NCBI RefSeq assembly: GCF_000384315.1 | Contig: NZ_ARVW01000001.1 | Span: 5,456,157-5,520,156, forward strand | DNA length: 64,000 nt | Origin: Amycolatopsis nigrescens CSC17Ta-90 | GTDB lineage: Bacteria; Actinomycetota; Actinomycetes; Mycobacteriales; Pseudonocardiaceae | Reading direction: 5' to 3' | Part shown: positions 16,816-18,913 of the stretch, in pieces | Position numbering within the stretch: the first letter of the stretch is position 1 | How the letters are laid out: each line of letters begins with the position of its first letter | Notes under the pieces: generated by a model | Told to the model about the DNA's origin: nothing | Seen by the model: only the letters and a program-made list of their open reading frames with translations | Databases searched by the model: none | Position numbers and translations under genes: made by a program

Positions 16816-17208
16816 TCAGGGCACTGCGGGGGTGCCGCCGGGGCGGATGGGGAGGCCGGCGGCGGCCCAGGCGCGGAAGCCACCGGCCAGGTCGGTCGCC
16901 TTGGCGAGGCCGAGCCGTTTGAGGTCCGCGGCGGCGAGGCTGGACGCGTAGCCCTCGTTGCACACCACGACCACCGCCCGGTCCGCGCGGACCTCGGGCA
17001 GCCGGTGCTCGCCGTCCGGGTCCAGCCGCCATTCCAGGTGGATGCGCTCCACCGGTATCGAACCGGGGATCTCCCCTTCGGCGGACCGGTTGGCGAACGG
17101 CCGGATGTCCACGATCAGCGCGCCCTCGGCCTGCAGGGCCCGTGCGGTGGCGGGGTCCGCCCGGTCCAGGGTGGACCGGGCGGCGGCCAGTACGTCCTCG
17201 ATGCCCAT
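16816..17208 (-). CDS. Rhodanese-like sulfurtransferase
   Basis: 130 residues, one rhodanese domain. The active-site loop CNEGYAS holds the catalytic Cys83; LIVDIRPFANRSAEG and GGFRAW are other family landmarks. It transfers sulfane sulfur in the cytoplasm. Its ATG (17208) overlaps the last base of the cysteine dioxygenase stop (TAATG), showing tight coupling. With that enzyme it forms a cysteine-sulfur oxidation or detoxification pair controlled by a cysteine leader. Confidence 0.88.
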   Translation of the reverse strand: MGIEDVLAAARSTLDRADPATARALQAEGALIVDIRPFANRSAEGEIPGSIPVERIHLEWRLDPDGEHRLPEVRADRAVVVVCNEGYASSLAAADLKRLGLAKATDLAGGFRAWAAAGLPIRPGGTPAVP

Positions 17209-17750
17209 TAGCTGATGATCGCAGGCAGCGGCGGGATCTCGGCGGGTACGTCGGCCAGCGAGGCGTACTCGCGGGTGGCCACCAGCGGCGGCGAGTAGGC
17301 GTGCACGCTGGCCGCCGGGCCGTTGCCTGCGCCGGTCACCTGGTGCGCCCGGCCGGCGCCGAAGCCGAGCCCGTCCCCGGCCCGGTGCGTGCGGCTGCGG
17401 ATCGGCCCGCCCGCGTACCGGTACTCCTCGGCCAGTTCGCCCTGTAGCACGGTGAACGAGCCGGACGCGCCGCCGTGGTCGTGCGGTTTGGTCTGCTGGC
17501 CTGGCAGCCAGGACAGCAGCCACAGCTCCACCCCGTCGGTCAGCGCCAGCCGCGCCCACCAGCGCTGCTCCTCTTCGAAGCGCAGCAGCTCGCGCAGGCC
17601 GGTGGTGAGCTCTGCGGCCACCGTGCCGGTCAGCTCGGCCAGCTCACGGGGAGTCCACAGTAGACGTTCCGGGTGCAGCAGGTCGGCCAGCAGCGGGTCG
17701 GTGAGCTGGGGGTGGATCTCGAATTCGGGACGGGCAATGGACACGGTCAT
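17208..17750 (-). CDS. Cysteine dioxygenase
   Basis: 180 residues, a bacterial type I cysteine dioxygenase cupin. The three iron ligands are visible as KPHDH (His90, His92) and AGRAHQV (His136). The enzyme oxidises L-cysteine to cysteine sulfinate with O2 in the cytoplasm. The ATG at 17750 is fixed by AGGAG eight bases upstream; an earlier in-frame GTG would run back through the leader hairpin. First structural gene of the operon with rhodanese, preceded by a leader peptide containing adjacent cysteine codons. Confidence 0.9.
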   Translation of the reverse strand: MTVSIARPEFEIHPQLTDPLLADLLHPERLLWTPRELAELTGTVAAELTTGLRELLRFEEEQRWWARLALTDGVELWLLSWLPGQQTKPHDHGGASGSFTVLQGELAEEYRYAGGPIRSRTHRAGDGLGFGAGRAHQVTGAGNGPAASVHAYSPPLVATREYASLADVPAEIPPLPAIIS

Positions 17751-17791
17751 TGGGGGAGCTCCTGACTGAGTGCGCGGGTGAAGGGCGATCA

Positions 17792-17868
17792 CGCGACGCG
17801 ACACGGCGAGCACCCACCGCACCGGGAAGAGTTCCGTGCAGAGCGCTCAGCTGAGGTGTCGCGTCGCG
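17792..17868 (-). promoter_or_regulatory. Putative cysteine attenuator inverted repeat
   Basis: A perfect 13-bp inverted repeat pairs 17856-17868 (in RNA CGCGACGCGACAC, the last codons of the leader peptide) with 17792-17804 (GTGTCGCGTCGCG), across a 51-base loop. A ribosome stalled on the cysteine codons at 17871-17879 would cover the first arm and stop the stem forming. This is the geometry of a leader-peptide attenuator. Whether the stem is terminator or antiterminator cannot be told from sequence. Confidence 0.6.
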
Positions 17869-17966
17869 GTACACCCGCAGGACGCGACGAGGAGCAGGTC
17901 GATGGCACGGCGGCGCCAGAACGAGCCCGCGGTGGCGGGTGCGCTGGAGATCGCCGGAGTGCTCAC
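17847..17966 (-). CDS. Cysteine-responsive leader peptide
   Basis: A 39-codon frame from GTG 17966 to TGA 17847 encodes a peptide whose second half reads RRRAIDLLLVASCGC and ends TATRHLS. This closely resembles the short actinobacterial leader peptides found before sulfur-metabolism genes, which share a basic patch, a DL-x-x-V-x-S segment and one or more cysteines. Its Cys codons TGC and TGT are at 17877-17879 and 17871-17873. CATATT lies seven bases before the GTG, so it may be leaderless. It is too small for automatic gene calling. Resemblance is from memory of the family, not a search. Confidence 0.65.
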   Translation of the reverse strand: MSTPAISSAPATAGSFWRRRAIDLLLVASCGCTATRHLS

Positions 17967-18100
17967 GAGACCGAATATGCCACAGCCTGCTGGCCCGGTG
18001 CGGCTGGTCTCACGAACTGGTACGCCGGGACGACCAGCGCCGACGGCCCCGCACGGGGTGCCGCCGCGACATGATCAACTCTCCCGGCCACAATGGGCTC

Positions 18101-18913
18101 GTGAGTGAGCCGACGCAGCCGTATGACCTAGACGATCTCGTGGTGCGGATGGACGGCGTAGGGGTACGGCGGGGGCACAACGAGCTGCTCGCCGGACTCG
18201 ACTGGGCCGTTGAACTGGATGAGCGCTGGGTGGTGCTCGGCCCGAACGGCGCGGGCAAGACCACCCTGCTCAGGCTGGCCGCGGCCGAGCTGCATCCCAC
18301 CACCGGTGTCGTGCATCTGCTCGGGGAGCGGATGGGCCGGGTGGACATCTTCGAGCTGCGGCCGCGGATCGGTTTCACCTCGGCCGCGGTGGCCGGCCGG
18401 GTGCCGCCGGACGAGATCGTGCGGGACGTGGTGGTCAGCGCCGGCTACGCGGTGCTCGGCCGCTGGCGTGAGGTTTACGACACCATGGACACCGAGCGGG
18501 CCGAGGAGCTGCTGGCCACGCTCGGCATCGCGCACCTGGCCGAGCGCACGTACGGCACGCTGTCCGAGGGCGAGCGCAAGCGGACGCTGATCTCCCGCGC
18601 GCTGATGACCGACCCCGAGCTGCTGCTGCTCGACGAGCCGGCGGCCGGGCTCGACCTCGGCGGCCGGGAGGATCTGGTGGCCAGGCTGTCCGCGCTCGCG
18701 CTGGACCCGGACGCCCCGGCGATGGTGCTGGTCACCCACCACGTCGAGGAGATCCCGCCGGGCTTCACCCACGCGCTGCTGCTCAAGGACGGCCGCGCGG
18801 TGGTCGCCGGTCTCATCGACGACGTCCTGACCAGCGAGAACCTGGCCAAGACCTTCGACCAGGACCTGCTGCTGGAGCGCTCGGGAGATCGATTCTTCGC
18901 CCGGCGCCGGTAA
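18101..18913 (+). CDS. Stand-alone ABC transporter ATPase
   Basis: 270 residues. Walker A is GPNGAGKTT, the signature is LSEGE rather than LSGGQ, Walker B is LLLLDEPAAGLDLGG and the switch His is in THHVEE. It belongs to a conserved actinobacterial group of ATPases related to ModF or iron-chelate systems, but no permease or binding protein is adjacent. The GTG at 18101 is preferred because CACAAT lies six bases before it, with GCGACA 17 bases further up (leaderless pattern); an in-frame ATG at 18071 is the alternative. Divergent from the cysteine leader. Confidence 0.85.
   Translation: MSEPTQPYDLDDLVVRMDGVGVRRGHNELLAGLDWAVELDERWVVLGPNGAGKTTLLRLAAAELHPTTGVVHLLGERMGRVDIFELRPRIGFTSAAVAGRVPPDEIVRDVVVSAGYAVLGRWREVYDTMDTERAEELLATLGIAHLAERTYGTLSEGERKRTLISRALMTDPELLLLDEPAAGLDLGGREDLVARLSALALDPDAPAMVLVTHHVEEIPPGFTHALLLKDGRAVVAGLIDDVLTSENLAKTFDQDLLLERSGDRFFARRR

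Follow-up and report, generated by a model that had tools for sequence, protein, structure and literature searches.

The cysteine dioxygenase-rhodanese operon of Amycolatopsis nigrescens CSC17Ta-90 is probably controlled by translational attenuation, in which a ribosome that is stalled at a Cys codon of a short leader would switch the operon on. The site lies ahead of both genes, on the minus strand at positions 17966-17792 of the window (the whole stretch of 64,000 nucleotides that was analysed), and the leader frame, its UGU codon and two RNA helices are shown by the comparison of related loci. An earlier note on this DNA had proposed a Cys-codon attenuator before these genes, and the conservation, covariation and position of the parts give this proposal good support. 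Its logic, i.e., on at high cysteine, is not supported: the folding models predict that a stalled ribosome frees the Shine-Dalgarno sequence of the dioxygenase gene and that a stall means ON. The type of the switch is known; its place on a cysteine-degrading operon is unexpected. The features of the site are collected in Table 1.

Table 1. Features of the dioxygenase-rhodanese operon and its leader region (positions are those of the window)
Feature	Position	Strand	Basis or remark
Cysteine dioxygenase (CDO)	17208..17750	-	PF05995, E 8.2e-13; ATG at 17750
Rhodanese	16816..17208	-	PF00581, E 4.8e-14; start overlaps the CDO stop (TAATG)
Upstream promoter element GTGAGAC	18007..18013	-	GGTGRGAC-like consensus, ~33 nt before the -10-like box; putative function
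Promoter -10-like box TGGCATATT	17974..17982	-	Sequence pattern; spacer of 7 nt to the start codon of the leader
Leader ORF, 39 codons, GTG start	17847..17966	-	Translation VSTPAISSAPATAGSFWRRRAIDLLLVASCGCTATRHLS; probably leaderless
Arm A, GCTCCT within codons CTG CTC CTC	17890..17895	-	Complementary to the dioxygenase Shine-Dalgarno
First Cys codon, TGC	17877..17879	-	Comparison of relatives; not conserved
Conserved Cys codon, TGT	17871..17873	-	TGT in 92/92 unique sequences
Arm B, leader codons after Cys, CGCGACGCGACAC	17856..17868	-	Covarying hairpin
Arm C, GTGTCGCGTCGCG	17792..17804	-	Covarying hairpin
Arm D, AGGAGC, dioxygenase Shine-Dalgarno	17758..17763	-	Pairs with arm A

The operon and the conservation of its leader

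The genome comprises 9.1 Mb in one contig. In its dioxygenase, R67 was aligned to an Arg in the cysteine dioxygenase structure 3eqe, which we take to be an enzyme of the B. subtilis type, and an Arg at this position presumably marks a cysteine-type active site and not a 3-mercaptopropionate-type one; the top PDB sequence matches of the protein (8qfl and its relatives) have a Ser at the equivalent position. The dioxygenase-rhodanese pair is catabolic by annotation and is thought to break down cysteine. A dioxygenase match was found in 33/40 related genomes, with the same-genus genome G011 having a distant match only. The comparison included the best 80 of 181 confirmed dioxygenase loci (hereafter the named loci), of which at least 71 have a rhodanese-like frame after the dioxygenase as judged by a crude motif.

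The 39-codon minus-strand frame that the earlier note had read from 17966 to 17847 was borne out. The leader was found at 78/80 named loci and in all 23 same-genus close orthologues, the host genome being among the 23; some genomes occur in both of these sets, and the later counts are of unique sequences. The search pattern, which lies behind 97 of the leaders and demanded a Cys at the conserved position, matched 74 of the 80 named loci. Inspection of the six loci that it missed revealed four that have a leader with that Cys (L078, L097, L105 and L110) and two that lack a leader, L104 and L109, both of which are Prauserella. Relatives that keep the dioxygenase and lack the Cys codons, which the earlier note had named as the case that would speak against an attenuator, were thus limited to these 2/80 named loci, and the proposal was not refuted. 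In both Prauserella loci, in which the dioxygenase is kept, a TG(C/T)CATCAT box that resembles the leader promoter remains, as seen by eye. Seven CDO homologues from the same order are more distant (L024-L030), and the leader pattern matched only L024 among them. When plasmids were searched for the leader region, no match was obtained.

The core of the leader approximates W-R-x-R-x-[IV]-D-L-L-L-V-A-S-x-x-C. Conserved residues are encoded by different synonymous codons, e.g., at Ala -4 (GCG 25, GCC 22, GCT 11, GCA 1), so selection appears to maintain the frame of the peptide. The length from the start to the conserved Cys varies from 57 to 96 nt, as does the N-terminus, and the Kibdelosporangium-type leaders read DLQKLNLC, in which the Leu codons -7 and -6 are replaced by Gln/Lys. 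In three Amycolatopsis loci (L073, L077 and L085), the leader frame runs without a stop before the dioxygenase start, and 6-8 nt of arm A are still complementary to the Shine-Dalgarno.

The earlier note had overlooked a promoter-like box that immediately precedes the GTG. A [CT]Ann[AT]T box precedes the leader start in 96/97 loci, and when 87 unique regions were aligned on the box, TG at -3,-2 and the C were present in all 87, and 86 had the second A; A2 and T6 of the box were fixed by the search pattern. The form of the box is TGGCAnnAT, not TAnnnT. In 55 of these regions the box is separated from the start by 7 nt, and in the other 32 by 6 nt. Reading the box as an extended -10 element would place the start of transcription at the start codon, which would make the message probably leaderless, with the GTG of the leader as its beginning. 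Further upstream, the last TG[AG]GA[CGA] match preceded the box by 32-34 nt in 58/87 regions and was located elsewhere in 7, with no match in 22; this GGTGRGAC-like element is possibly an activator or regulator site. A scan of 17600-18100 for the sigma-70 consensus found no promoter.

Apparent selection on the cysteine codon

The Cys codons had been described as adjacent in the earlier note; the sequence actually reads TGC-GGG-TGT (Cys-Gly-Cys), and only the second Cys is conserved. At the first position, 65 unique segments had Cys in 38, Ala in 13, Ser in 13 and Gly in 1, and the Cys codon was TGC in 34/38. By contrast, the second position was Cys in all of the leaders found, 78/78 named and 23/23 same-genus, and its codon was TGT in every one of them, i.e., in 92/92 unique sequences. 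The search pattern partly required Cys at this site and never TGT specifically. In the background, TGT accounted for 10/143 of the Cys codons in the window and 122/1059 in the loci, i.e., 7-12%, in ORFs that were chosen by length and G+C-rich third positions; a laxer ORF filter gave 20/172. As UGU is invariant against this background, selection seems to act on the codon itself, which peptide function could not explain. UGU is served, as far as is known, by a single tRNA-Cys, and we infer that it is a slow, wobble-read codon. The exceptionless UGU, compared with its use of about 10% in genes, lends itself to a direct test of whether a "hungry" codon has been chosen here.

Two helices around the leader and the Shine-Dalgarno

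The key element, which the earlier note overlooked, is the complementarity between the Leu-Leu-Leu-Val codons of the leader and the Shine-Dalgarno of the dioxygenase gene (arms A and D). In the free-state fold of the window sequence, the leader GCUCCU was paired with the Shine-Dalgarno AGGAGC, and the z-score of the whole fold was -2.34. When 16-nt segments of 92 unique loci were compared, complementarity to the Shine-Dalgarno peaked 8-28 nt before the Cys codon, with means of -13.5 and -13.9 kcal/mol in the peak segments and of -6.0 to -10.5 kcal/mol elsewhere. In 72 unique pairs, the own partners of A:D reached -14.7 kcal/mol compared with -12.6 after synonymous recoding (0/300 as good) and -12.8 after swapping (0/5000). 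Moreover, the base after CTCCT covaried with the base before AGGAG (n=50: C-G 24, G-C 16, C-C 7, and G-G, G-A and T-C 1 each; Fisher p 1.7e-6 on the C/G cells, a value that is inflated by sequence relatedness, as are the swap tests of both helices). Ten of these 50 combinations are not complementary, and the window belongs to the seven C-C cases. Both sides are changed in the Kibdelosporangium-type loci L064, L066, L070, L072 and L081, where a leader CTCCAG is found with a Shine-Dalgarno CTGGAG, and the leader of L074, which is of the same type, has CTTCAG. In Sciscionella (L105 and L110), the complement is shifted, as judged by eye, to CGGCTCC just past the Cys codon. The pairing is short in the window (6 bp), and the longest exact match is 0-4 nt in 8/65 loci. 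The predicted pairing of the leader with the downstream Shine-Dalgarno is nonetheless supported by covariation and by the null tests.

The second helix, B:C, corresponds to the perfect 13-bp inverted repeat of the earlier note, which was confirmed; its second arm, previously placed 40 bases before the dioxygenase, lies 41 nt before the ATG by a hand count. A perfect repeat of at least 13 arose in 1/2000 dinucleotide shuffles of the 217-nt stretch. In 75 unique named segments and the window, the 11 pairs of B:C were formed in 92.8% of the cells (14.9-67.0% in the slid controls), and double changes were present in 8/11 pairs and 95 cells, compared with a shuffle mean of 27.3 (0/500 as high); for further pair types, 5/500 shuffles were as high. 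These counts supersede those from a hand-chosen set of 34 rows (33/75 segments and the window), which missed most of the loci with a weak B:C and in which 94.5% were paired; its weaker measures were the pairs with double changes (21/500 shuffles) and the further types (60/500), and RNAalifold recovered the B:C helix from it unaided. The duplex of B and C had an energy of -28.0 kcal/mol with its own partners, -25.2 when they were swapped (0/5000 as good) and -21.1 when C was shuffled. The computation skipped L073, L077 and L085, and B:C was weak or uncomputed in 6/85 unique loci (L067, L069, L075, L082, L091 and L102). B:C would serve to bring A and D together. A role of B:C as a spacer received no support from a correlation test, its strength being uncorrelated with the distance from the leader to the gene (rho -0.08, p 0.49).

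Ribosome position and the predicted logic of the switch

The effect of the ribosome position was computed with a modelled footprint that extended 18 nt upstream and 12 nt downstream of the base with which the A-site codon begins. In the folding model of 85 unique loci, the cost of opening the Shine-Dalgarno dropped when the A site was occupied by codons -11 to 0, where 0 is the conserved Cys. The mean change was -2.3 kcal/mol when the A site was at the conserved Cys and -3.3 when it was at the position of the first Cys, compared with -0.9 at +1, -0.3 to -0.8 at +2 to +8 and -0.9 at the stop codon. With a margin of 0.5 kcal/mol, a stall at Cys was better than the stop position in 50/85 loci, worse in 16 and within the margin in 19, and in a simpler version of the model, the cost was lower with the stall in 69/85. 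For the sequence of the window itself, the values were -3.7 at Cys and -3.4 at the stop codon, which the model does not separate. The opening interval includes the Leu/Val codons, and the fold alone is not cysteine-specific.

In the mechanism that we propose, the leaderless message would start at the GTG of the 39-codon leader. By default, CUG CUC CUC (arm A) would pair with the Shine-Dalgarno (arm D), with the strong B:C helix between them, and the operon would be poorly translated. If charged tRNA-Cys is short, a ribosome would stall once UGC or UGU occupies its A site and would cover arm A partly or completely and arm B for the most part, by which the Shine-Dalgarno would be freed (ON). If Cys-tRNA is plentiful, the ribosome would continue to the stop codon that directly follows arm B; arm A would then be released and the Shine-Dalgarno masked (OFF). 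Because a stall at Cys would free the Shine-Dalgarno, a shortage of Cys-tRNA is expected to mean ON; the stall and the response to cysteine are what we infer here. It counts against this explanation that a cysteine-degrading enzyme that is on at low Cys-tRNA looks paradoxical. Either the enzyme does not serve the disposal of excess cysteine (but, e.g., makes sulfur available to assimilation), or it is not low cysteine that the leader responds to.

A second dioxygenase behind a Cys-codon leader

A second dioxygenase (CDO2) at 5607321 is preceded by a leader of the NF042934 type, and a third, more distant dioxygenase match is located at 1285368. The CDO2 set consisted of 20 same-genus regions and the host genome; the matches in G011 and G013 and one in G021 were left out. 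All 20 regions (L124-L143) have a Cys-rich leader that ends in Cys-Cys-Arg, and the last 11 codons of the CDO2 leaders contain TGT 65 times and TGC 9 times (65/74 Cys codons TGT). In the host genome (region 5607122-5607671, L114), 10 nt of the CDO2 leader are exactly complementary to the Shine-Dalgarno of this gene. A general anti-Shine-Dalgarno in the CDO2 leaders was rejected, the exact matches being of 4-5 nt in 17/20 regions and of 7-8 nt in 3/20. Attenuators that respond to amino acids are classically known from the control of biosynthesis; in this genus, leaders with Cys codons precede two different cysteine dioxygenases. ON at a shortage of Cys-tRNA is predicted for the first dioxygenase only.

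Alternative explanations

Transcription attenuation is an unlikely alternative to this control of translation, although it would have the same sign (low Cys-tRNA means ON) and differ in its output: the B:C hairpin, or Rho acting on the untranslated stretch downstream of the leader, would end transcription once the ribosomes clear the leader, and a stall would prevent this. The strong and covarying B:C, whose arm B sits where a stalled ribosome would cover it, fits such a mechanism, and Rho was suggested for the mycobacterial cys leaders in PMC1262725. However, no terminator-like site with a T run, and hence no intrinsic terminator with a U run as in a classical transcription attenuator, was found in 17600-18100, and the covariation of A:D would be left unexplained.

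Two further readings would restore a response to high cysteine through the Leu and Val codons. It is quite unlikely that the leader is a sensor with two inputs, in which excess cysteine would lead to Val/Leu starvation and to a stall on LLLV, which is the anti-Shine-Dalgarno itself, so that cysteine oxidation would be turned on and UGU would set the edge of the switch; if true, a starvation-type device would have been turned into a high-cysteine alarm. A sensor of branched-chain amino acids, in which excess cysteine starves valine/leucine and a stall at LLLV frees the Shine-Dalgarno (ON at high cysteine), is very unlikely. The opening interval from -11 to 0 contains LLLV, and 53/62 unique segments have at least five Leu/Ile/Val codons at -11 to -1, the other 9 having 3 or 4. 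Additionally, cysteine inhibits acetohydroxyacid synthase and perturbs the valine supply in C. glutamicum according to PMC11893703, and in yeast, as described in PMC6696984, cysteine excess disturbs translation in a manner that leucine relieves; these observations keep the branched-chain reading alive. On the other hand, the Kibdelosporangium-type loci have Gln/Lys in place of Leu -7 and -6 while the UGU never changes, the CDO2 leaders are rich in Cys, and the [IV]DLxxV core is also found in leaders ahead of other genes.

There is also very little probability that the leader is an arrest peptide that senses high cysteine, with the nascent peptide stalling when cysteine is abundant and the catabolic operon thereby being ON, as in the case of TnaC. 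In the tryptophanase operon, the TnaC leader is a sensor of free tryptophan, and its effect is exerted via Rho. The likeness consists in a leader peptide on a catabolic operon for the amino acid of its key codon; Rho and the sensing of the free amino acid are features of TnaC. The conservation of R-x-[IV]-D-L-x-x-V-A-S-x-x-C at the amino-acid level, with synonymous changes, and the catabolic annotation of the operon are in line with this reading. DLQKLNLC in the Kibdelosporangium-type leaders would, however, be a large change for an arrest peptide, sensing by the peptide does not explain the invariant UGU, and the CDO2 leaders share the preference for UGU even though they are unrelated in sequence. 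Finally, a small functional protein with incidental RNA pairing is extremely improbable: the leader amino acids are conserved, but the length and the N-terminus vary, and the pairs covary with the Shine-Dalgarno of the downstream gene.

Comparison with known systems and other Cys leaders

Translational attenuation with a stall at Cys, which is the reading that we prefer, can be compared with several known systems. Leaderless short ORFs with Cys codons occur before sulfur genes in mycobacteria, and Cys leaders were proposed there by Shell et al. 2015 (PMC4633059). In translation attenuation in general, the pairing between an upstream ORF and the Shine-Dalgarno is released by stalling, and the cysteine biosynthetic genes of M. 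smegmatis are given as an instance in PMC13236596. Our leader has in common with the mycobacterial attenuators that respond to cysteine at the level of translation (Shell 2015; Canestrari 2020) a short ORF with Cys codons, which is probably leaderless here, and an upstream ORF:Shine-Dalgarno pairing that a stall is predicted to release; the pairing findings of Canestrari 2020 lie outside this comparison. It differs from them in having 1-2 Cys codons instead of a contiguous Cys run, an anti-Shine-Dalgarno in Leu-Val codons together with a covarying hairpin downstream of the Cys, and a catabolic annotation of the operon. In the literature searched, which did not cover Canestrari 2020, no paper on a leader before a cysteine dioxygenase was found.

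A similar arrangement is seen in the LEU element upstream of the actinobacterial leuA, in which, according to PMC1262725, Leu codons of the leader pair with the Shine-Dalgarno as the base stem, as do arms A and D. In contrast to that element, our gene is a cysteine dioxygenase and not leuA, the leader has a conserved Cys codon and the identity of Leu is not required. Moreover, a pseudoknot was published for the LEU element, whereas the hairpin is nested here, where nested helices alone were considered. The authors of that paper regarded a mechanism based on leader translation as unlikely in their case.

Among the NCBIfam families, NF042934 (cis_reg_atten), NF042933 (Ms5788A) and NF042936 (Ms4527A) have the [IV]DLxxVxxxxC core in common with the window leader, which scored 20.7, 15.9 and 13.8 bits, respectively, and hence below all of the cut-offs (27, 45 and 45). 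The leaders of seven CDO1-type relatives were likewise below these cut-offs or had no match. Rfam gave no gathering-score match in five loci, including the one in the window (L001), and four sub-threshold hits in 17500-18200, the best of which had an E of 0.51. The NF042934 search of the host genome yielded six plausible leaders (E <=0.011), three of which were over the cut-off, the dioxygenase leader studied here not; at a permissive E <=10, the family also matched 10/14 control genomes, with none over the cut-off.

The preference for UGU may be wider among actinobacterial Cys leaders. In the Ms5788A-type Cys-Leu-Cys leaders (L144-L150 and L154-L157), the last Cys codon is TGT in all 11. An anti-Shine-Dalgarno in leaders of this type was rejected, with matches of 4-6 nt only (13/14 loci recognised, L151 not, and additionally L113), in a test that is weak for L144-L150, where the start picked was that of the second gene. 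Four other Cys leaders were found in the host genome, and the genes behind them were named by eye: that at 3803556 (L111) lies before a TSUP-like permease, that at 373439 (L112) before a gene resembling nitrite/sulfite reductase, that at 3857306 (L113) before a DUF4395-like/sulfurtransferase pair and that at 2779527 (L115), after a long gap, before a secreted protein.
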